A stretch of DNA of 64,000 nt, from positions 4,306,891-4,370,890 of the forward strand of contig NZ_CP073343.1 of NCBI RefSeq assembly GCF_024397855.1, in the 5' to 3' direction. Numbering within the stretch: position 1 is the stretch's first letter; each line of letters starts with the position of its first letter. The notes beneath the pieces are model-generated. The model had not been told where the DNA came from. It saw only the letters and a program-made list of their open reading frames with translations, and did no database searches. This stretch comes from Marinomonas rhizomae (GTDB lineage Bacteria > Pseudomonadota > Gammaproteobacteria > Pseudomonadales > Marinomonadaceae). The translations under genes were made by a program, and so were the position numbers. Below are positions 5,506-17,016 of the stretch, piece by piece.

Positions 5506-6279
5506 TTGACTGATTCTGATTCCGATGTTTTCAGCCTGCCTTCCGAAGCCGATGCCCATGATCATGATTATCATCAACTGGTAATCGTGCTGGATGGCAA
5601 TACCGATTTCGACATAGAAGGCAAAGGCAAGCAACTGCATACTGGCGAAGGTTGTATTCTTCCGTCAGAGAACAGTCATGCGTTTGCGGGTCTGGGAGAA
5701 AATCGTATCATGGTGGTTAACCTGCCTGTTCCACCGCAAAAAGGCATTACCGACGAAGAATACGAAATCGTATCGCGTTTGTTTGATCAGGCGGCGTATT
5801 TTCAGCTCAATCCTCGCTTGCAAATACTGGCTTCCGCTCTGTCTGGTGAATTACAGCAATACCCAAACGATATGATTCTGGCTCGTGCTTGCGGCAATAC
5901 CTTGTTAAGCGCCATTCGTCATCAGATCAATAACAAAGATGTACGCTCCCGAGGCAATCATCTCGATATCGATAAACTGGACCAGTTTATCGAGCTAAAT
6001 TTGTCTCGTCGCGTTCATATTGATCAATTAGCAAACTTTTGCTTTTTGAGTGTCAGTCAGTTTCACGAACGTTTCAAAGATCGTACCGGCATGACACCGC
6101 ATCAATACTTAATGCGCAAGCGCTTAGAACGTGCTCAAAGCTTACTCGCCGAAGGTTTTCCACCTATTCAAGTGGCCGAAATGTGTGGTTTCTCCAGCCA
6201 AAGCGCCATGACTAATGTGTTCTCTCAGACTCTTGGAATTACGCCATTAAAATACCAAAAACAATTTGGTAATCGCTGA
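5506..6279 (+). CDS. AraC-family transcriptional regulator upstream of putA
   Basis: A 257-aa regulator with a short cupin-like sensor domain at the N-terminus (HDHDYHQLVIVLDG, then GEGCILPSENSHAF) and a C-terminal AraC double helix-turn-helix from about residue 150 (IDQLANFCFLSVSQFHERFK, then VAEMCGFSSQSAMTNVF). The start appears to be TTG at 5506. No in-frame ATG lies nearby, and AAAAGG sits 7 bp upstream. It is directly upstream of putA on the same strand, and this PutA lacks the DNA-binding domain that lets long PutAs repress themselves. A role in proline control is inferred, not shown. Confidence 0.82.
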   Translation: MTDSDSDVFSLPSEADAHDHDYHQLVIVLDGNTDFDIEGKGKQLHTGEGCILPSENSHAFAGLGENRIMVVNLPVPPQKGITDEEYEIVSRLFDQAAYFQLNPRLQILASALSGELQQYPNDMILARACGNTLLSAIRHQINNKDVRSRGNHLDIDKLDQFIELNLSRRVHIDQLANFCFLSVSQFHERFKDRTGMTPHQYLMRKRLERAQSLLAEGFPPIQVAEMCGFSSQSAMTNVFSQTLGITPLKYQKQFGNR

Positions 6280-6388: not shown

Positions 6389-6596
6389 CCAGTCGGACTT
6401 TCTTATAAAAAAAAACGACTTTTTCGAAAGACAATTTATCCCTTCTGTCACTAAAGTGTCAGCATTATCCAGACATGCATTTTTTTGATTCAGCAGAGTG
6501 AAAAGCAGTCAAAAAAACGCTTAATGCTCTATAACAATATGCGGCCTTACTAAAACACCATGCTGTTTTTTTATGTTAACGCGGGAGAATCCAACC
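6389..6596 (+). promoter_or_regulatory. Non-coding leader before putA
   Basis: The 6280-6596 gap is 317 bp and holds no gene. Besides the inverted repeat at 6356-6388 it has A/T runs at 6410-6425 and 6480-6520 and a GGGAG ribosome-binding site just before ATG 6597. The putA promoter presumably lies here, but I could not assign -35/-10 elements confidently. Confidence 0.4.
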
Positions 6597-9500
6597 ATGT
6601 TTAAAGCGATTGAGGTGTTACAGCCTAACTTCATTCAGCGTCCACTCAATGAATTGTGGCAGCTAATTTCCCCTCTTTATAATATGGATGAAGAGAAGTG
6701 GTTAAATGAACTATTACCTTTAGCCAAACCCACGGAAGGTGAGCTAGAAAACCAAACCAATGCTGCTGCAAATTTAATTACTGACGTTCGCAAAGACGAC
6801 GACAGTATGTCAATGATTGACGCTTTGTTATTGGAATACAGCCTAGACACTAAAGAAGGCATCTTGCTGATGTGTTTGGCAGAAGCGCTAATGCGCGTGC
6901 CGGACAAAGAAACCGCTGATGCTTTTATCAAAGACCGTTTGAGCGTTGCCGACTGGGCATCTCACGCTAAAAACTCTGATTCTTTCTTCGTAAATGCTTC
7001 TACTTGGGGTTTATTGTTGACGGGCAAAATCGTCACGATGGACGAGAACAAAGACGGCACGCCCGCTAACTTGGTGAATCGCATGGTGAACCGTGTTTCT
7101 GAGCCGGTAATTCGTAAAGCGATGAACCAAGCGATGAAAATCATGGGGCATCAGTTTGTACTTGGTCGCAGCATTGAAGAGGCCTTGTCCCGTGGCAAAA
7201 GCTACCGCGACAAAGGTTATACTTATTCTTTCGATATGCTGGGTGAAGCCGCACTAACCGCTGCTGACGCTGACAAATACCTAACGTCTTATATGAAAGC
7301 CGTAGAATCTGTCGGCAAAGACACTTACAGCCAAAAACACCGCCCGACTATTTCTATCAAGCTGTCCGCTCTTCACCCACGTTACGAAGTGGGTTGTGAA
7401 GAACGAGTTATGACCGAACTGTTTGAAAATGTTAAGACCTTGATCACCAAAGCACGTTCGTTAAACGTCGGCATCACCATCGATGCGGAAGAAGCAGATC
7501 GTCTAGAGCTGTCTTTGCATTTATTCGAAAAACTTTATCGCGACGAATGCACCAAAGGCTGGGGCTTGTTTGGTCTTGTGGTTCAGGCTTACTCAAAACG
7601 CGCTTTACCGGTTTTGGTTTGGTTAGCTGCACTTTCAAAAGAGCAAGGTGATCGCATTCCTGTACGCCTTGTAAAAGGTGCTTACTGGGACTCTGAAATC
7701 AAGATGTGCCAACAACGCGGCATCAATGGCTACCCAGTTTACACTCGTAAAGAATCCACCGACGTGTCTTACCTAGCTTGTGCGCACTTCTTATTAAGCG
7801 AGCATACTCGTGCGAACATATTCCCGCAGTTTGCGAGCCACAACGCGCACACTATCGCGACAATTAGCTGCATCGCCAAGCAACTAGGTGCGACAACAGA
7901 AGAGTTCGAATTCCAGCGACTACACGGAATGGGTGATGCGCTGTACAACCGCCTGATCAAAGACAGCGACATCTGTGTGCGTATTTATGCGCCTGTAGGT
8001 AGCCATAAAGACTTGCTTCCTTACTTGGTTCGTCGTCTGCTAGAAAATGGTGCCAACAGCTCATTCGTTCACCGTTTAATCGACGCTAGTTACCCTGTTT
8101 CTGAGTTGATCGATCACCCAGTAACAACACTTGAAAGCCGTAAAACGTTGGCGAATCCACATATCAGCTTGCCTTCAGGTTTGTTTGACGACCGTAAGAA
8201 CTCTTTTGGTCCAAACATCGAGATTGACTCTGAATGGACGCCATTCAAAGCAAAAATTGATGTATTCATGGGACAAGACACCCAATGGCGTGCCTTCCCT
8301 ATCGTTGGCGGCGAAAAAGTCACAACAGGTCAAACGCATTCTGTCGACAGCCCTTACGACCACAGCCAAACAGCAGGTCAAATTGACTGGGCAGACGCAG
8401 CGACGGTTACCAAGGCAATTGATCTTGCCGAAGCCGCTTTCCCTGCATGGTCTGCGCGTCCAGCCACAGAACGTGCTGACTGCCTAGACAAAATGGCTGA
8501 CTTGATGGAAGAAAACTACGCTGAATTGATGGCCCTTTGCCACCGTGAAGCGGGTAAAACGATTCAAGACAGCATTGATGAAGTACGTGAAGCCGTGGAT
8601 TTCTGTCGCTATTACGCGCAACAAGCCCGTAGCCACTTCGCTAACCCAACGCACTACAAAGATTTCTTAGGCCAAGACAAACAAACCAAGCTAAACGGCC
8701 GCGGCGTGTTCACTTGTATCAGCCCATGGAACTTCCCATTGGCCATCTTTACAGGCCAAGTAGTTGCCGCGCTTGTAGTGGGCAACACAGTGGTTGCAAA
8801 ACCAGCTGAGCAGACAAGCTTAATCGCTTTCCGCGCTATCGAAATGCTACACCAAGCAGGTGTTCCAACAGACGTACTTCACTTGTTACCAGGTGACGGT
8901 GCCACCGTTGGTGCTCCACTGACTAGCGACAAACGCATTGCTGGCCTTGCCTTCACAGGTTCCACTGGAACAGCACAATTGATCAACCGTACTCTAGCGG
9001 CTCGTGGCGTAGCGCCAGTGCCAGTGATTGCAGAAACCGGTGGTCAAAACGCCATGTTGGTTGATTCTACGTCTTTACCTGAACAAGTAGTGCGTGATGC
9101 GGTTCGTTCAGCCTTTGCTTCTGCGGGTCAGCGTTGTTCAGCATTGCGCGTATTGTTCGTACAAGCAGACATCGCAGACCGTGTCATTCCGATGATCAAA
9201 GGCGCCATGCAAGAACAAACTGTTGGTTTGCCTTACCTACACAGCACAGATGTGGGTCCGGTTATCGACAAAAAAGCTCAAGACATGTTGCTTAAACACA
9301 TCGAACGTATGACCAAAGAAAGCAAGTTAATTGCCCAAGCAGAACTGCCAGACTTCGCTAAAAACGGCACCTACGTTGCGCCAACGGCATTTGAAATCAG
9401 CAGCATTGACCAGCTAACGGATGAGAAGTTTGGCCCTATCCTTCACGTTGTACGCTACAAAGCACGCGACTTGGATAAGATCATCGACACCATCAATAAC

Positions 9501-9719
9501 TCAGGCTTTGGTTTGACTATGGGCGTTCACAGCCGAAATGAAACCACTTGTGCTCGTATCGCAAGTCGCGCTCGTGTTGGTAACCTATATATCAACCGTG
9601 ACCAAGTCGGTGCGGTGGTGGGTGTTCAGCCTTTCGGCGGACAAGGCTTGTCCGGCACAGGACCAAAAGCTGGCGGTCCTCATTACCTTCAACGCTTCGC
9701 TATTGAGCAAGACCTTTAA
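6597..9719 (+). CDS. putA: Bifunctional proline dehydrogenase / delta1-pyrroline-5-carboxylate dehydrogenase PutA, lacking N-terminal RHH and C-terminal domain
   Basis: Oxidises proline to glutamate in two steps: FAD-dependent proline dehydrogenase, then NAD-dependent P5C dehydrogenase. Start chosen at ATG 6597 after GCGGGAG, giving 1040 aa. The proline dehydrogenase barrel spans about residues 130-450 (IDAEEADRLELS near 299, RLVKGAYWDSEIK near 356). The ALDH domain follows, with PWNFPLAI near 709, the FTGSTGTAQL NAD site near 786, the catalytic Glu region AETGGQNA near 812 and catalytic Cys in AGQRCSAL near 846. There is no N-terminal ribbon-helix-helix, so it cannot act as its own repressor. 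It also ends without the ALDH-like C-terminal domain of the longest PutAs; that domain is encoded by the next gene, 14 bp downstream. Confidence 0.95.
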   Translation: MFKAIEVLQPNFIQRPLNELWQLISPLYNMDEEKWLNELLPLAKPTEGELENQTNAAANLITDVRKDDDSMSMIDALLLEYSLDTKEGILLMCLAEALMRVPDKETADAFIKDRLSVADWASHAKNSDSFFVNASTWGLLLTGKIVTMDENKDGTPANLVNRMVNRVSEPVIRKAMNQAMKIMGHQFVLGRSIEEALSRGKSYRDKGYTYSFDMLGEAALTAADADKYLTSYMKAVESVGKDTYSQKHRPTISIKLSALHPRYEVGCEERVMTELFENVKTLITKARSLNVGITIDAEEADRLELSLHLFEKLYRDECTKGWGLFGLVVQAYSKRALPVLVWLAALSKEQGDRIPVRLVKGAYWDSEIKMCQQRGINGYPVYTRKESTDVSYLACAHFLLSEHTRANIFPQFASHNAHTIATISCIAKQLGATTEEFEFQRLHGMGDALYNRLIKDSDICVRIYAPVGSHKDLLPYLVRRLLENGANSSFVHRLIDASYPVSELIDHPVTTLESRKTLANPHISLPSGLFDDRKNSFGPNIEIDSEWTPFKAKIDVFMGQDTQWRAFPIVGGEKVTTGQTHSVDSPYDHSQTAGQIDWADAATVTKAIDLAEAAFPAWSARPATERADCLDKMADLMEENYAELMALCHREAGKTIQDSIDEVREAVDFCRYYAQQARSHFANPTHYKDFLGQDKQTKLNGRGVFTCISPWNFPLAIFTGQVVAALVVGNTVVAKPAEQTSLIAFRAIEMLHQAGVPTDVLHLLPGDGATVGAPLTSDKRIAGLAFTGSTGTAQLINRTLAARGVAPVPVIAETGGQNAMLVDSTSLPEQVVRDAVRSAFASAGQRCSALRVLFVQADIADRVIPMIKGAMQEQTVGLPYLHSTDVGPVIDKKAQDMLLKHIERMTKESKLIAQAELPDFAKNGTYVAPTAFEISSIDQLTDEKFGPILHVVRYKARDLDKIIDTINNSGFGLTMGVHSRNETTCARIASRARVGNLYINRDQVGAVVGVQPFGGQGLSGTGPKAGGPHYLQRFAIEQDL

Positions 9720-9733
9720 GGGGAGACATTACT

Positions 9734-10417
9734 ATGACAATCGTACAACCTATCCAAATTCAGGTCGCTCAAAAAGTCTTCGAAGCATGGGATAAGCTAG
9801 GCGTAAATGGTCGTGCAGAAAAACTGCAAAAAGCCCTTAACGTTTTCCCTAGCGAACAAGGAAAAATGGCTGCTTGGCAGATCGACAATGCGAAACAATC
9901 TATTTCCGAAACACGCGTTATGCCTGGACCAACTGGCGAACGCAATGAGCTGTCAAACCAAGGTCGTGGCGTGTTTCTTTGCTCATCTTTTTTTGAAGGC
10001 GATAACGCAAAAATCGGCTTAGTTGGTCAAGTGTTTGCCGCGCTAATAGCAGGAAATCCAGTGATTACAGTTGGCCCAATGGGACAAGAAATCATGGATA
10101 TAATTTCCCCATTCGTTGCGGAAGGTGTGGTTCAAAATATTGCAGACTCTGCACAAGACTCGTTGATCGAAGCCGATCACCTTGCTGGTATTGCAACACT
10201 TTGCGACCCTGCACAAGCTCAACAACTAAGCCAACGTTTAGCCGCGAAAAGCGGCCTAATCTGCCAATTGGTAGAAGAAACGGATGCAGATAATCTAAGT
10301 GTAATTGCCAAACCGCATTACATTCTACGTTTTGTCACAGAGCGTACCGTGTCTAACAACACCACCGCAATCGGCGGTAACGCGACACTGCTTGAATTGG
10401 GCAGCATGAACGACTAA
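9734..10417 (+). CDS. Stand-alone PutA C-terminal ALDH-superfamily (ALDHSF) domain protein
   Basis: A 227-aa protein that corresponds to the C-terminal ALDHSF domain of long PutA proteins rather than to an enzyme. It has the TGERN motif (about residue 65) and ends with SNNTTAIGGNATLLELG, very close to the SVNTAAAGGNASLM ending of the E. coli PutA C-terminus. It has no ALDH catalytic Cys or Glu motif. In long PutAs this domain covers the P5C dehydrogenase active site and stabilises the substrate channel. Here it follows putA by 14 bp with its own GGGGAG ribosome-binding site, so it is probably a partner subunit made in trans. The domain assignment is sequence-based; the partnership is inferred. 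Confidence 0.8.
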   Translation: MTIVQPIQIQVAQKVFEAWDKLGVNGRAEKLQKALNVFPSEQGKMAAWQIDNAKQSISETRVMPGPTGERNELSNQGRGVFLCSSFFEGDNAKIGLVGQVFAALIAGNPVITVGPMGQEIMDIISPFVAEGVVQNIADSAQDSLIEADHLAGIATLCDPAQAQQLSQRLAAKSGLICQLVEETDADNLSVIAKPHYILRFVTERTVSNNTTAIGGNATLLELGSMND

Positions 10418-10441: not shown

Positions 10442-10485
10442 AAAAAAGGGCCCTTCTTGGTAGCAAGAAGGGCCCTTAATTTTAT
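10442..10485. terminator. Bidirectional terminator between putA operon and TRAP binding-protein cluster
   Basis: A perfect 14-bp stem (10446-10459 with 10464-10477, arm AAGGGCCCTTCTTG) with a GTAG loop. It is flanked by an A-run on the left and AATTTTATTT on the right, so it can serve both convergent units. Confidence 0.88.
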
Positions 10486-10506: not shown

Positions 10507-11616
10507 TTACTCAAGCTCACGAGCATTGATATAAGCCCGCTCAGACACTTCGTGCCACGCTCTTACTTTGCCATTAAACTCTTTAAATGAGTTGTAGACT
10601 TTTTGACTCATTGGGTCTGCTTCAGCCACTTCTTCCAAAGTTTCAGCGGAGGCTTTTTTCAATGCTACCAAGACTTCCCTTGGGAAGGCTTTGAAAATAA
10701 CATGATGTTCGTTCACCAAGGTTTCTAATGCCGCATTATTACGTGCTGTAAACTCATCCAACATATCGGCATTCACTTGGCGAGTCGCCGCTCGAACGAT
10801 CAGCTGAAGATCTTTTGGCAAAGCCTCAAACGCGTCTTTGTTGTAAATGGCTTCCATCGTAGAACCTGGCTCGTGCCAACCTGGGTAGTAGTAAAACTTC
10901 GCCGCTTTATACAAGCCAAAAGCGAGGTCGTTGTAAGGGCCAACCCATTCTGTTGCATCAATAGTACCCGTTTGTAACGCCGTAAAGATTTCACTGCCTG
11001 GCAAATTAACCGGTGTGCCACCGACTTTTTTCAGCACTTCCCCACCCAAACCTGGAAGGCGCATTTTCAGGCCTTGGAAGTCTTCAAGTGAGTTGATCTC
11101 TTTATTGAACCAACCTCCCATCTGTACCCCTGTATTGCCTGCCGCCATAGGAATAAGATTGAAAGGCGCGTAGGTTTCTTCCCACAATTTGAGGCCGCCA
11201 CCATAATGAAGCCATGAGTTCATTTCTTGCGCGGTAAAACCAAAAGGAACGGCAGAGAAAAACTGTGCAGCAGGGGCTTTGCCTTTCCAGTAGAAAGCGC
11301 CACCGTGACCCATTTGAGCAGTGCCACGAGATACTGCATCAAACACTTCCAAAGCAGGTACAAGTTCGCCTGCAGCGTATACTTTGACCGTCAAACGACC
11401 ATTAGACATGGCGGTAATGTTTTCCGCTAAATGCTCTGCCGCTGTACCTAAACCAGGGAAATTCTTTGGCCATGTTGTGACCATTTTCCAATGAATAACA
11501 TCAGCCGTTTTTTCCGCCTTGGCTGTTGTTTTTTCTTCAGATCCACCACAAGCCACCAAGCTTGCCGCCGTCAAACCAACTAAAGCCAGCTTTCCCCACA
11601 TTTTTATTGTTTTCAT
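10507..11616 (-). CDS. TRAP transporter substrate-binding lipoprotein, TakP/FcbT1 type (paralogue 1)
   Basis: Extracytoplasmic solute receptor for a TRAP transporter, 369 aa. It has a lipoprotein signal peptide with lipobox LVAC (Cys at about 23) and a low-complexity linker GGSEEKTTAKAEK, then the DctP fold beginning WKMVTTWPKN. The ligand region WVGPYNDLAFGLYKAAK plus YYYPGWHEPGS is characteristic of the TakP (2-oxoacid) and FcbT1 group. It is one of four tandem paralogues on the minus strand, all 369-370 aa, and the last in transcription order. No permease gene is adjacent. Its upstream region shares a promoter-like element with paralogue 2. Confidence 0.9.
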   Translation of the reverse strand: MKTIKMWGKLALVGLTAASLVACGGSEEKTTAKAEKTADVIHWKMVTTWPKNFPGLGTAAEHLAENITAMSNGRLTVKVYAAGELVPALEVFDAVSRGTAQMGHGGAFYWKGKAPAAQFFSAVPFGFTAQEMNSWLHYGGGLKLWEETYAPFNLIPMAAGNTGVQMGGWFNKEINSLEDFQGLKMRLPGLGGEVLKKVGGTPVNLPGSEIFTALQTGTIDATEWVGPYNDLAFGLYKAAKFYYYPGWHEPGSTMEAIYNKDAFEALPKDLQLIVRAATRQVNADMLDEFTARNNAALETLVNEHHVIFKAFPREVLVALKKASAETLEEVAEADPMSQKVYNSFKEFNGKVRAWHEVSERAYINARELE

Positions 11617-11724
11617 TAATTATCCCTAAAAGACTGAATTACTTTATTTTTATATAAGCTTTGCTTGATACCATGAACTAAGCAAAGACGAGTCGACAAC
11701 CAACTCTATAGCTATAACTTATTT

Positions 11725-11767
11725 ACTAAGTGCTTCTAATAGTATAAAGAGCAATATCAAGCCTCAA
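11725..11767 (-). promoter_or_regulatory. Conserved promoter-like element upstream of TRAP lipoprotein paralogue 1
   Basis: Minus strand: TTGAGG (11762-11767), 15-bp spacer, TATACT (11741-11746), then CACTTAGT ending 8 bp further down at 11725-11732. The same elements at the same spacing stand before paralogue 2. The spacer is two bases shorter than ideal for sigma70. Confidence 0.5.
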
Positions 11768-11813
11768 GGCTTTTTTTACTTTTATTTATGCGCCACTTTT
11801 ATAATGCATTAGA

Positions 11814-11851
11814 AATAAAAAAAGCTCTGTCATCAAGGATAACAGAGCTTT
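11814..11851 (-). terminator. Terminator of TRAP lipoprotein paralogue 2
   Basis: A 10-bp stem (AAAGCTCTGT at 11821-11830 with 11842-11851). On the minus strand it is followed by a run of T. It sits about 40 bp after the paralogue 2 stop and shares the GAGCTT core with the terminator of paralogue 3. Confidence 0.8.
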
Positions 11852-11893
11852 AAGATCAATAAGTTAGTTTACATCAAACGGGATAAAATACGC

Positions 11894-13003
11894 TTAGTTC
11901 AATTCACGCGCATTGATATAAGCACGTTCAGACACTTCATGCCACGCTCTTACTTTCGCACCAAATTCTTTGAATGAATCATAAACTTTTTGGCTCATTG
12001 GATCCGCCGCAGCGACTTCTTCTAGTGTTTCTGCTGAGGCCTTTTTCAGAGCTAACAATACGTCATTAGGAAAAGGCTTCAATGTCACGTTATGTTCGTT
12101 AACCAGCGTCTGCAGGGCAGAATTGTTCAACGCGGTGAACTCATCCAACATTTCCGCATTGGCTTGGCGCGTTGCCGCACGAACGATAAGCTGTAAATCT
12201 TTTGGCAAGGCTTCGAACGCTTCCTTGTTGTAGATCGCTTCCATCGTAGAACCTGGCTCATGCCAACCTGGGTAGTAGTAGAATTTAGCCGCTTTGTATA
12301 AGCCAAACGCTAAGTCGTTATATGGGCCAACCCATTCTGTTGCATCGATGGTTCCAGACTGCAAAGCAGTGAAAATTTCGCCACCAGGAAGGTTAATTGG
12401 CGTACCGCCCACTTTCTTCAACACTTCACCACCTAAACCAGGAATACGCATTTTTAGGCCTTGGAAGTCCGCCAAAGAGTTAATCTCTTTATTGAACCAG
12501 CCGCCCATTTGTACACCCGTGTTACCTGCAGCCATTGGAATCAAGTTAAATGGCGCGTAGATTTCTTCCCACAGTTTTAAACCGCCACCGTGGTGAATCC
12601 ATGAATTGATTTCTTGAGCGGTGAAGCCAAATGGGACAGCCGTAAAGAACTGAGCCGCTGGCGCTTTGCCTTTCCAATAATAAGCCGCACCGTGGCCCAT
12701 TTGAGCGGTACCACGCGACACAGCATCAAACACTTCCAAAGCAGGAACCAATTCACCCGCCGCATAGACTTTTACGTTGATACGTCCGCTGGACATCTCA
12801 TTAATGCTTTTTGCTAGGTTTTCAGCGCCCGTCCCCAAACCCGGAAAGTTTTTTGGCCAAGTGGTGACCATTTTCCAGTTAATGATCTCGGCTGCTTTTT
12901 CTACTTTTGCCGTTTCTTTTTCTTCTGATCCACCACACGCCACCAAAGTGGCTGCTGCCAAACCGACCAACGCCAGTTTGCCCCACGATTTTATTGCTAT
13001 CAT
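11894..13003 (-). CDS. TRAP transporter substrate-binding lipoprotein, TakP/FcbT1 type (paralogue 2)
   Basis: A second 369-aa solute-binding lipoprotein, very similar along its length to paralogue 1. It shares lipobox LVAC, the WKMVTTWPKNFPGLG start of the mature fold, the TQMGHGAAYYWKGKAPAAQFF-like segment and the ligand-site stretch DATEWVGPYNDLAFG with PGWHEPGS. A ribosome-binding site CTCAGGGATAATCA precedes the ATG. It has its own promoter-like element (13135-13177) and its own terminator, so each copy looks like an independent transcription unit. Differences from paralogue 1 concentrate in the linker after the lipid Cys and in the last 60 residues. Confidence 0.9.
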   Translation of the reverse strand: MIAIKSWGKLALVGLAAATLVACGGSEEKETAKVEKAAEIINWKMVTTWPKNFPGLGTGAENLAKSINEMSSGRINVKVYAAGELVPALEVFDAVSRGTAQMGHGAAYYWKGKAPAAQFFTAVPFGFTAQEINSWIHHGGGLKLWEEIYAPFNLIPMAAGNTGVQMGGWFNKEINSLADFQGLKMRIPGLGGEVLKKVGGTPINLPGGEIFTALQSGTIDATEWVGPYNDLAFGLYKAAKFYYYPGWHEPGSTMEAIYNKEAFEALPKDLQLIVRAATRQANAEMLDEFTALNNSALQTLVNEHNVTLKPFPNDVLLALKKASAETLEEVAAADPMSQKVYDSFKEFGAKVRAWHEVSERAYINARELN

Positions 13004-13134
13004 TGATTATCCCTCAGGAGACTAGTTATTTTTATTGGACTTAGCGTGCATATAACGAACAACACAACCCTAATAGTGTACGAGCAAGAATCTTAAATAA
13101 GGATAAAATTCGAACTCTAGTTCATATTTTATGC

Positions 13135-13177
13135 ACTAAGTGTATTGAATAGTATGAATTGCGCTGCCAGCGCTCAA
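13135..13177 (-). promoter_or_regulatory. Conserved promoter-like element upstream of TRAP lipoprotein paralogue 2
   Basis: Minus strand: TTGAGC (13172-13177), 15-bp spacer, CATACT (13151-13156), then CACTTAGT at 13135-13142. Spacing matches that before paralogue 1, while the DNA between the elements differs, which suggests selection on these boxes. Confidence 0.5.
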
Positions 13178-13229
13178 GACCTTTTTGATATTTATTTTGT
13201 CTAGCCACTCTTAATCCTATTAATGCAAA

Positions 13230-13266
13230 ACAAAAAAGCTCCGCTATCAAAGATAACGGAGCTTTT
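13230..13266 (-). terminator. Terminator of TRAP lipoprotein paralogue 3
   Basis: Stem of AAAAGCTCCG..TATC (13234-13248) with GATA..CGGAGCTTTT (13252-13266), one mismatch and an AAA loop, followed on the minus strand by T-rich sequence. Confidence 0.8.
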
Positions 13267-13302
13267 AGTGGTACTAGATAGATGTTTTAAAAGACAGGGA
13301 GC

Positions 13303-14412
13303 TTAATCATCTGCTCGCGCATTGATATAAGCACGCTCAGAAACATCATGCCATTCACTGACTGGGGCTAAAAATTTCTTGAACGACTCATAGACTTTTT
13401 TACTTTCAGGATCACCCGCAGCCACTTCTTCTAGGGTCTCAGCAGATGCTTTTTTAAGCGCCTCTAACAAGTCACGAGGGAAAGGCTTAAGAATCACATT
13501 ATGCTCATTTACCAAGGTTTGCAGGGCGGCATTATTCCGCGCCGTAAACTCATTGATCATATCCAAGTTAGCTTGTTTTACCGCTGCTCGAGCAATCGCT
13601 TGTAGATCTTTAGGTAAAGCCTCAAAAGCCTCTTTGTTAAAGATAACTTCAACCGCAGAACCTGGCTCATGCCAACCTGGGTAATAATAATACTTCGCTG
13701 CTTTATACAAACCAAAAGCAAGGTCGTTATATGGCCCAACCCATTCCGTCGCGTCAATCGTACCTGTTTGAAGAGCATTGAACACTTCGCTACCCGGCAA
13801 GTTAATGGGTGATGCACCCACTTTTTTCAGCACTTCGCCACCTAAACCTGGCATACGCATTTTCAAGCCTTGGAAATCCGCTAACGAATTGATCTCTTTG
13901 TTAAACCAACCACCCATTTGCACACCTGCGTTGCCAGCAACCATGGGGATTAAGTTAAAAGGCGCGTAGATTTCTTCCCAAAGCTGTAAACCACCACCAT
14001 AAGCAATCCAAGCATTAAATTCTTGTGCCGTAAAACCAAAAGGTACGGTTGAGAAAAACTGTGCCGCAGCAATTTTGCCTTTCCAATAGTACGCTGTTCC
14101 GTGCCCCATTTGCGCAGTACCGCGAGATACCGCATCAAACACCTCTAATGCAGGAACCAGTTCGCCAGCGGCATAGACTTTAATGTCCAAACGACCGTTA
14201 GACATTTCTTTAATATTCTTCGCCAGCGCTTCTGCACCCGTTCCCATTCCTGGGGCGTTTTTCGGCCAAGTGGTCACCATTTTCCAATGAATGACATCGG
14301 CTTTTTGCTCGACATTTGCCGCTTTCTTTTCTTCTGATCCACCACAAGCAGCCAAAACCGCAGCCATTAACCCGACGAAAACAACCTTCGCCCATGCGTT
14401 TATTTTATTCAT
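13303..14412 (-). CDS. TRAP transporter substrate-binding lipoprotein, TakP/FcbT1 type (paralogue 3)
   Basis: Third 369-aa binding protein of the tandem set. The lipoprotein signal ends at LAAC (Cys about 23). The mature fold starts WKMVTTWPKNAPGMG, and the ligand-site region WVGPYNDLAFG/KYYYYPGWHEPGS is kept. It is more like paralogue 4 than 1 and 2 at several sites, such as KKVGASP and AVEVIFNKEAF instead of the TMEAIYNKEAF seen in 1 and 2. Only 149 bp separate it from paralogue 4, and a strong terminator fills part of that gap. The TTGAG/TACT/CACTTAGT element of copies 1 and 2 was not found upstream. Confidence 0.9.
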   Translation of the reverse strand: MNKINAWAKVVFVGLMAAVLAACGGSEEKKAANVEQKADVIHWKMVTTWPKNAPGMGTGAEALAKNIKEMSNGRLDIKVYAAGELVPALEVFDAVSRGTAQMGHGTAYYWKGKIAAAQFFSTVPFGFTAQEFNAWIAYGGGLQLWEEIYAPFNLIPMVAGNAGVQMGGWFNKEINSLADFQGLKMRMPGLGGEVLKKVGASPINLPGSEVFNALQTGTIDATEWVGPYNDLAFGLYKAAKYYYYPGWHEPGSAVEVIFNKEAFEALPKDLQAIARAAVKQANLDMINEFTARNNAALQTLVNEHNVILKPFPRDLLEALKKASAETLEEVAAGDPESKKVYESFKKFLAPVSEWHDVSERAYINARADD

Positions 14413-14494
14413 TAACTGTATCCATTAACCGATGAATTACACCAATAACCAGCGCTTTGCCTCCTACCGTTCATCTAATAAAAAATGAAGAAAG

Positions 14495-14537
14495 GCGAAT
14501 AAAATAAGCCCTGTTATCAACGACAACAGGGCTTATT
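14495..14537 (-). terminator. Terminator of TRAP lipoprotein paralogue 4
   Basis: A perfect 13-bp stem (AATAAGCCCTGTT at 14503-14515 with 14525-14537), read on the minus strand into TTATTTTATTC, 25 bp after the paralogue 4 stop. Confidence 0.82.
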
Positions 14538-14561
14538 AGTATTGCTAGTTCTTAAAACGCA

Positions 14562-15674
14562 TTAGTCTGTTGCGCGAGCGTTGATAAACGCACGCTCAGA
14601 AATATCATGCCACTCGCTAACAGAGTTTAAAAATCCAGTGAAAGAGTCATAGACTTTTTGGCTCATAGGATCGTTAGCAGCGACTTCTTTTAGAGTTTCA
14701 TCAGATGCCACACGCAATGCTTCCAAAAGATCTTTCGGGAACTTTTTCAACACAACATTGTGTTCATCGACCAATGTTTTCAATGCCGCATTATTACGCG
14801 CTGTTAGCTCGCTCAACATATTCAGATTAGCTTGTTGTGCTGCAGAACGAACGATCTCTTGAAGGTCTTCTGGCAATGCATTAAACGCGTCTTTATTAAT
14901 CAGCGCTTCAACAGCAGAACCTGGCTCTTGCCACCCTGGGTAATAGTAGTATTTCGCAGCTTTGTACAAACCAAAAGCTAAGTCATTGTAAGGACCCACC
15001 CACTCCGTTGCATCAATCGTACCGGTTTGCAGAGCGGTAAACATTTCGCTACCCGGAAGGTTCACAGTCACAGCACCCACTTTCTTCAGCACTTCGCCAC
15101 CTAAACCTGGCATGCGCATTTTCAAGCCTTGGAAGTCTGCGAGAGAGTTGATCTCTTTGTTGAACCAACCACCCATTTGTGCGCCAGTATTACCCGCCGC
15201 CATAGGAATGATATTAAAGGGTGCGTAAACTTCTTCCCACAGTTGTAAACCACCGCCATAAGTAATCCAAGAGTTAAACTCTTGCGCCGTCATACCAAAT
15301 GGTACAGACGAGAAAAACTGTACGGCAGGCGCTTTGCCTTTCCAGTAATACGCCGAGCTGTGGCCCATTTGTGCTGTACCACGAGAAACCGCGTCAAACA
15401 CTTCCATAGCAGGGACCAACTCCCCTGCCGCGTAAACTTTAATCTCTAAACGACCGTTAGACATTTTTGTGATGTTTTTCGCTAATTCTTCAGCACTTGT
15501 GCCCAAACCTGGAAAGTTTTTTGGCCAAGTCGTGACCATTTTCCAGTGAATCGTTTCTACTTTTTTCTCAACTTTTGCCGTTTCTTCGGCTTTCTCTGAT
15601 CCGCCGCAAGCGGCCAAAGACAAAGCAAACAAACCAGCAAACGCCAATTTGCCCAATACCATTAAATTACGCAT
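14562..15674 (-). CDS. TRAP transporter substrate-binding lipoprotein, TakP/FcbT1 type (paralogue 4)
   Basis: Fourth copy, 370 aa and first in transcription order. Lipobox LAAC is followed by GGSEKAEETAKVEKK and then WKMVTTWPKNFPGLG. The conserved region WVGPYNDLAFG is intact, but the following motif reads PGWQEPGS where the other three have PGWHEPGS. The hinge segment is GAVTVNLPGSEMF rather than GGTPVNLPGSE. These changes near the ligand region may mean a different substrate preference. Ribosome-binding site CTGAGGGAAAAAAATGCG. The gene upstream is an unrelated oxidoreductase with its own terminator. Confidence 0.9.
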   Translation of the reverse strand: MRNLMVLGKLAFAGLFALSLAACGGSEKAEETAKVEKKVETIHWKMVTTWPKNFPGLGTSAEELAKNITKMSNGRLEIKVYAAGELVPAMEVFDAVSRGTAQMGHSSAYYWKGKAPAVQFFSSVPFGMTAQEFNSWITYGGGLQLWEEVYAPFNIIPMAAGNTGAQMGGWFNKEINSLADFQGLKMRMPGLGGEVLKKVGAVTVNLPGSEMFTALQTGTIDATEWVGPYNDLAFGLYKAAKYYYYPGWQEPGSAVEALINKDAFNALPEDLQEIVRSAAQQANLNMLSELTARNNAALKTLVDEHNVVLKKFPKDLLEALRVASDETLKEVAANDPMSQKVYDSFTGFLNSVSEWHDISERAFINARATD

Positions 15675-15789
15675 TTTTTTCCCTCAGGGAGCCAGTTACT
15701 TTTTAACAACGTAGATGTTCAATCTAGATGAAATGTGTCTGAGACATGGGAAAGCGATGAAAAAGCACCACCATCCATGGAGATTGGAT

Positions 15790-15824
15790 CAATAAAGGCA
15801 TTAGCGAGATGCCGCCCTTTATTG
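15790..15824. repeat. Hairpin in the intergenic region upstream of paralogue 4
   Basis: CAATAAAGG (15790-15798) pairs perfectly with CCTTTATTG (15816-15824) across a 17-nt loop. It lies between the Gfo/Idh terminator and the TRAP lipoprotein start, and its role is unclear. Confidence 0.4.
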
Positions 15825-15844
15825 CCTTTTTATTATAAGATCAG

Positions 15845-15886
15845 ACAAAAAATTGCCCTTTTGCCGCATAAAACAGCAAAAGGGCA
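15845..15886 (-). terminator. Terminator of the Gfo/Idh/MocA oxidoreductase gene
   Basis: An 11-bp perfect stem (TGCCCTTTTGC at 15854-15864 with 15876-15886), followed on the minus strand by AATTTTTTGTC. Confidence 0.85.
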
Positions 15887-15948
15887 GAAGATGATAAGAA
15901 TTGTAGGAACCTTGCTCAACTCTTTTTTACAATTTCTTGAGACTTATT

Positions 15949-17016
15949 TTACTCAGCTCCAAAGTGTGGCGTATAACTCCAAGACATGCGTTGACCACTT
16001 TCCGCGGATTGCTCCGCCAAACAAATCAAATAAATCAACTGACAAGCCTGCTCCATGGCAACCGGAGCCTCACCTTTACCAAGAATCGAGTCACGTAATT
16101 GCGCATAGAACGCGGCATAGTCGCCTTGTGTAGCCGCTTCTTGAATGCTTTCAATATCATCTTGAGAGTGCGCGACAAAGCGCGTAACTCTTTGCTGAGT
16201 GGCTTTCGAAGGAAATTCATCTTGCCATGGCATTTGTCCCGACCGTAACGCTTCTTCTTGTGGGTCTAGTCCCACACATTGCCAGCCGCCTTGAGAGAAT
16301 CGAGCATTAAATCTACGCATTTCTCCCGCTTCAAACGGTGTAGACGCCAAACGCACACGTTTATCGTCATAACCCAACTCTACTTCAAACCAATCGTGTG
16401 TTTGGCTACCATCACGTAGTTTATCAATACTGGCATGCAACCACTTAGGTGTCCCAAATAAACTGAGAGCCTGATCCAGTAAATGCGGACCTAAATCCCA
16501 AAAGATTCCAGTGCCAACCCCCGGCTCTTCACGCCAACGGGTTTGTACTGTTGGACGAAAGCGATCAAAACGAGAGTCCAAATGCTTCAATTCGCCCAGC
16601 TCACCACTTTCAATCAGCGCTTTAAGACGCAAGAAATCGCCATCAAAACGACGATTCTGATACACGCAAAACACCAAGCCGTTTTGCTTCGCAAGCGTAC
16701 AAAGGGCCTCTATTTGATCGAGGCTCGTCACCGAAGGCTTCTCCAATAGCACATGTTTGCCGTTTGATAGCGCTGCTTTAGCTTGCTCAAAATGCAAAGA
16801 ATTTGGCGTCGTGATCACTACCAGATCCACATCCGGCGCGGCAAACACAGATTCCGCAGACGACACCACAGACACATCCGGCAGCACAGCCCTCACCTCA
16901 TCCGCCTTTGAACTGCAAACATACGACATCGTCATGTCAGGATCATTCATCACAAACGGCGCGTGAAACACCCGCCCCGACAAACCAAAACCAATCAAAC
17001 CAACACGAATCGCCAT
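15949..17016 (-). CDS. Gfo/Idh/MocA-family NAD(P)-dependent oxidoreductase
   Basis: A 355-aa sugar/inositol dehydrogenase-type protein. The N-terminal Rossmann domain starts VGLIGFGLSGRVFHAPF (residues 5-21) and contains the family EKP motif (HVLLEKPSV, about 90-98). The C-terminal alpha/beta domain carries GTGIFWDLGPHLLDQAL around residues 165-185, with Asp and His typical of the active site. Overall it resembles the YdgJ subgroup. It is monocistronic with its own terminator. The substrate cannot be named; proximity to the TRAP binding proteins does not establish a link. Confidence 0.82.
   Translation of the reverse strand: MAIRVGLIGFGLSGRVFHAPFVMNDPDMTMSYVCSSKADEVRAVLPDVSVVSSAESVFAAPDVDLVVITTPNSLHFEQAKAALSNGKHVLLEKPSVTSLDQIEALCTLAKQNGLVFCVYQNRRFDGDFLRLKALIESGELGELKHLDSRFDRFRPTVQTRWREEPGVGTGIFWDLGPHLLDQALSLFGTPKWLHASIDKLRDGSQTHDWFEVELGYDDKRVRLASTPFEAGEMRRFNARFSQGGWQCVGLDPQEEALRSGQMPWQDEFPSKATQQRVTRFVAHSQDDIESIQEAATQGDYAAFYAQLRDSILGKGEAPVAMEQACQLIYLICLAEQSAESGQRMSWSYTPHFGAE

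Follow-up and report, generated by a model that had tools for sequence, protein, structure and literature searches.

Does the small gene that directly follows putA in Marinomonas rhizomae encode a detached piece of PutA, and if so, what does that piece do? We addressed this in a 64,000-nucleotide stretch of the M. rhizomae chromosome (the window). In type A PutAs, the tunnel that passes P5C/GSA is covered by an oligomerization flap that the partner subunit contributes, and in type B PutAs a fused domain covers it instead. We use the names CCM (the conserved C-terminal motif) and ALDHSF in their usual structural sense; the term ALDHSF also appears in the accessible text of PMC13155685. The original prediction for this locus held that a 1040-aa PutA ends at its ALDH module without the C-terminal domain of long PutAs, and that the gene 14 bp downstream carries that domain's TGERN motif and a PutA-type ending. 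Both observations were borne out: PutA terminates at GGPHYLQRFAIEQDL with no CCM, and the small protein has GPTGERNEL at residues 65-73 and SNNTTAIGGNATLLELG near its end. We consider it likely that the 227-aa protein is a stand-alone lid, acting in trans, for the substrate-channelling tunnel of PutA. The basis computed here comprises motifs and their complementary distribution, the gene pair, selection, clade structure and a predicted fold.

Table 1. Features of the putA region, numbered by position in the window.
Feature	Position	Strand	Remarks
AraC-family regulator gene	5506..6279	+	5' of putA; relatives upstream in 64/80 named split loci, 77/80 of which have >900 nt upstream of putA
putA	6573..9719	+	Bifunctional proline dehydrogenase / P5C (GSA) dehydrogenase core; without CCM and flap motif
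PutA flap region, THYKDFLGQDKQTKLNGRG	8649..8705	+	Length as in type A PutAs; PTGExN motif missing
PutA C-terminus, GGPHYLQRFAIEQDL	9672..9716	+	Stops short of where type A PutAs carry the CCM
Shine-Dalgarno-like site, AAGGGGAG	9718..9725	+	Overlaps putA stop codon; 8 nt 5' of small-gene ATG
227-aa stand-alone PutA ALDH-superfamily (putative lid) protein	9734..10417	+	ALDH fold, catalytic domain missing
Flap motif GPTGERNEL, small protein	9926..9952	+	Residues 65-73
CCM SNNTTAIGGNATLLELG, small protein	10352..10402	+	Four residues follow to the end
Terminator-like hairpin	10446..10477	+	14 pairs; consensus match; closes the putA-small gene pair

The putA frame would yield 1048 aa if translation began at the ATG at 6573, or 1040 aa from the ATG at 6597. 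The second start is probably the right one, because the protein of a relative (L221) begins identically, with MFKAIEVLQ. Pfam matches over the cut-off are Pro_dh-DNA_bdg, Pro_dh and Aldedh, and both ALDH catalytic motifs are kept (Cys in GQRCS, Glu in AETGG). Pfam reports no N-terminal DNA-binding domain of the ribbon-helix-helix type in the window PutA. The GGPHYLQRFAIEQDL end falls immediately ahead of the point at which short PutAs such as 3haz run on into the CCM. Proline dehydrogenase and the small protein each have a single match in the genome. The AraC-family protein encoded 5' of putA probably regulates the put genes.

The small-gene ORF begins 14 bp past the putA stop codon. The position of AAGGGGAG over that stop suggests translational coupling of the small gene, and many of the 30 loci compared have similar junctions. 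The region has 6 terminator-like sites, shuffled sequence 4.8, and the hairpin downstream of the small gene is the one with the most pairs. Beyond it, at 10507-17016 on the reverse strand, lie five tandem ORFs of similar size (369, 369, 369, 370 and 355 aa), the first three of which encode TRAP solute-binding proteins of the DctP type and resemble close paralogues.

When the small protein was compared with the full set of PDB chains, every match with E below 0.001 was a PutA. Matches to the ALDH and C-terminal parts of type A PutAs (6bsn, 3haz and mutants) had E values of 2.3e-15 to 3.6e-15, and those to the SmPutA C-terminal domain (5kf6 and variants) about 3e-4, over residues 1083-1235 of 5kf6. 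A best alignment to an unrelated ALDH fragment, which the original prediction had named as counter-evidence, was not seen. Searches for proteins of similar length at E<=1e-3 found 86 relatives with the 227-aa query, 478 when a Vibrio member was the query and 415 when a third member was; these sets share members, and for the two larger ones 120 matches each were listed. Judged by these sequence comparisons, the family's matches exceed chance by far. The predicted fold is that of an ALDH NAD domain without a catalytic domain, the Pfam Aldedh score falls under the cut-off, and the catalytic Cys motif GQRC is absent from all 85 split small proteins examined.

The pairing with putA is conserved. 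A gene-neighborhood survey, as the original prediction had proposed, placed putA directly 5' of the small gene in 30 of 30 loci, among them the window genome and 17 others of the genus. In the order-wide sample, those 18 genomes are all among the matches listed for the split gene, and the non-matches listed include no genome of the genus. We then took the best 80 of 572 relatives from named genomes. In every one, a putA without a full CCM lies directly upstream, at gaps of -1 to 69 nt, and the small gene is separate, never fused to PutA. These loci come from Photobacterium, Vibrio, Aliivibrio, Salinivibrio, Grimontia, Enterovibrio, Psychromonas, Agarivorans, Marinomonas, Marinobacterium, Nitrincola, Neptuniibacter and Bermanella, plus two MAGs labelled Neisseriaceae (L086, L095), in which the pair may reflect horizontal transfer or mis-binning. 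Fused or unlinked copies in relatives, the other outcome that would have counted against the idea, were not seen within the split clade. Since the small gene is separate in 80 of 80 loci, its product may act like the lid domain but does not belong to a fused type B PutA.

One family of 99 genomes has PutAs of all three kinds (A, B and split). There, all 41 split-type PutAs adjoin a small gene; 39 are complete, with 24-98 nt between match ends, and two small genes are cut by contig ends at the gene start. Split type was assigned here from a PutA match of at least 1460 bits, plus one genome with its match in pieces (G831), and the small gene was not used as a criterion; lower-scoring PutAs in this family were typed only in part. 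Among the matches listed in a class-wide search of 369 genomes, a separate frame of about 230 aa occurs only in the window genome.

At least seven genomes of the 99-genome family (G331, G763, G794, G805, G807, G796, G808) hold both the split pair and, by frame length, a long PutA. A Marinomonas-like pair with 79-82% PutA identity, matched in two pieces, occurs in a genome of another family (L193/G118, family f16), which suggests transfer of the pair. On a contig of 1982 bases (P0297), a 382-aa chimera joins the PutA N-terminus in frame with the small domain and is probably a deletion or a misassembly.

The core and the small protein carry complementary motifs. We typed 80 PutA regions, hand-picked from related families for family spread and so not a random sample (the order supplied 60 and the class 20; three genomes contributed two each, and four split regions were included knowingly). 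The CCM lies at the end of a type A chain in 47, at the end of a type B fused domain in 29 and in the next gene in the four split ones. No region had the CCM twice or lacked it, over a downstream stretch of about 1.8 kb, or less where the contig ended; two regions (L164 and L187) that escaped the motif pattern were assigned by visual inspection. The flap motif is distributed likewise. Among cores in which the flap could be anchored (anchoring failed for 15 of 159), it is present in 38 of 41 type A cores, the other three having degenerate forms, in none of 25 type B cores and in none of 78 split cores. Outside the core, it is found in 27 of 29 fused domains and in all 85 split small proteins, which also all have the CCM at their C-terminal end. 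Split PutA tails end ahead of a complete CCM in both the 30-locus and the 80-locus sets, so that split cores do not carry flap motif and CCM in cis as type A PutAs do. In two loci (L085, L093), the split PutA C-terminus ends in GGNA and overlaps the small-gene start, either as a CCM remnant or by chance.

The small gene is clearly kept by purifying selection, though it evolves faster than putA. Within the genus, dN/dS was 0.068-0.087 in six of seven pairs, and in the seventh dS was saturated; because dS exceeds 1 in all pairs but that with L002 (dS 0.64, ratio 0.072), these ratios are rough. The last 460 codons of putA gave 0.022-0.046. Across many genera, the small protein has near-constant length and invariant motifs.

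How the split state arose is addressed by trees of the core. One account would be fission, in which a stop and a start were introduced between the ALDH and C-terminal domains of a long type B PutA; the parts and their order are identical. A FastTree phylogeny of 109 cores, drawn from 159 (35 of 85 split, all 45 type A and all 29 type B), instead places the split cores in a single clade (support 99) amid type A cores, and a branch with support 100 sets the split cores, together with 21 of the type A cores, apart from the remaining 24 type A cores and every one of the 29 type B cores. A mixture-model IQ-TREE analysis of 42 cores agrees (split cores 100; split plus 10 type A cores 100). By core phylogeny, the split PutAs thus belong among type A. 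They also retain a type A-like flap length, with a median of 36 against a median of 24 (range 20-36, mostly shorter) in type B, and the window core shares up to 65% identity with type A cores, against about 46-52% for full-length long-PutA matches. As the main reading, fission of a long PutA is ruled out by the two core trees, and we give it only a very small probability overall. With its cores in a single clade amid type A, the split PutA does not represent a severed long PutA; given the cores sampled, splitting occurred once, from a short PutA with lid elements in cis. As read from these sequences, those elements disappeared from the short PutA and are now borne by a separate ALDH-like gene. 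The proposal that the C-terminal domain of long PutAs exists here as a separate gene thus stands with respect to motifs, fold, adjacency and a core without the same elements, and fails with respect to an origin by splitting.

The source of the small gene itself was addressed with a domain tree of 24 of the 85 small proteins, 40 core ALDHs and all 29 fused domains. The small proteins form one clade (100/98) and side with the fused domains against the core ALDHs (82/90), a grouping that fission would also produce. AU tests did not reject alternative origins (p 0.25 and 0.21, the former for a type A ALDH copied locally); the tree covers a short domain, and the branches of several fused domains are long. 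Distances among cores and among small proteins correlate (r 0.90, 77 pairs), which signals co-inheritance, not contact.

What would such a protein do? We propose that it is a dead ALDH protomer, which has kept the predicted NAD-domain fold, the beta-flap and the CCM and lacks the catalytic domain. The PutA core has given up both lid elements, flap motif and CCM, and the adjoining gene would supply them as a second chain, docking where the fused domain sits in type B PutA. There it would close the tunnel and affect channelling, and translational coupling would keep the PutA and lid chains near-equimolar. An AlphaFold2 model of the linked (read-through) proteins sets the flap and the CCM as in SmPutA; this is not independent evidence, but it is consistent with the small protein covering the substrate tunnel. 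Because the putative lid comes from the next gene, the PutA tunnel is probably assembled from two proteins in M. rhizomae and many relatives.

The small protein might instead chiefly stabilize or assemble PutA, through folding, oligomer state or membrane switching, with tunnel sealing not its main role. The accessible text of PMC5293562 implicates the type B C-terminal domain in ALDH activity and redox-dependent membrane binding, and motif complementarity by itself fits a stabilizer as well as a lid. Yet the elements relocated to the small protein are the flap and the CCM, which the read-through model, with the caveat above, puts as in SmPutA. Stabilizing and sealing are also not mutually exclusive, and we regard a chiefly stabilizing role as improbable. 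Many source records name the product 1-pyrroline-5-carboxylate dehydrogenase, a label that the small-protein sequence does not support. With the catalytic domain missing, the catalytic Cys motif absent from all 85 proteins and a Pfam Aldedh score under the cut-off, we give a separate P5C dehydrogenase almost no credence. An ALDH without its catalytic domain could also be a functionless, decaying fragment, but low dN/dS, near-constant length, motifs invariant over many genera and adjacency in 80 of 80 loci make decay just as hard to believe. A trans-acting lid remains our preferred reading.

Among known systems, the closest likeness is to the C-terminal domain of type B PutAs such as SmPutA (5kf6, Sinorhizobium meliloti) and RcPutA (Rhodobacter capsulatus), with which the small protein shares the flap motif, the CCM and a non-catalytic ALDH fold; the SmPutA domain occupies the place taken by the small protein in the read-through model. 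In those enzymes the domain is fused, whereas in Marinomonas the putative lid has its own gene and the core lies among type A. In its action the small protein probably resembles the type B lid domain, with a type A-derived core as its partner. A monofunctional PRODH/P5CDH pair likewise uses two polypeptides for proline catabolism. In that pair the catalytic activities themselves are divided between chains, unlike in Marinomonas, where PutA retains both activities and only the lid is separate. The type A PutA of Bradyrhizobium japonicum (3haz) keeps the CCM within its own chain, unlike split PutA, and the accessible text of PMC5786444 describes the tunnel of this type as covered by the dimer partner. 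The trifunctional type C PutA of Escherichia coli has a fused C-terminal domain (PMC5293562, accessible text) and, unlike the window PutA as judged by Pfam, an N-terminal DNA-binding ribbon-helix-helix domain.

We found no account of a separate lid gene in the literature searched, which was covered in part, so that publication elsewhere is possible. Such a gene is also unmentioned in the accessible portions of PMC5293562, PMC12398946, PMC5786444, PMC13155685, PMC9132996 and PMC11596857.

It is an even bet whether the pair constitutes a fourth PutA architecture, an obligate two-chain channelling enzyme in which a short PutA gave up its lid and a pseudo-ALDH from the next gene takes the role that a second subunit has in type A dimers. 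To our knowledge, tunnels that pass reactive intermediates usually lie within one chain or a homodimer. If the two-chain architecture is true, lid supply could set how tightly reactive P5C is held. A trans lid would also correct the 1-pyrroline-5-carboxylate dehydrogenase name in many Vibrio and Marinomonas entries, and genomes holding both the split pair and a long PutA would be useful for tests of lid cross-talk. A natural lid on its own gene can be omitted, re-added or titrated without cutting a protein, and the role of the lid in P5C channelling is therefore directly testable.
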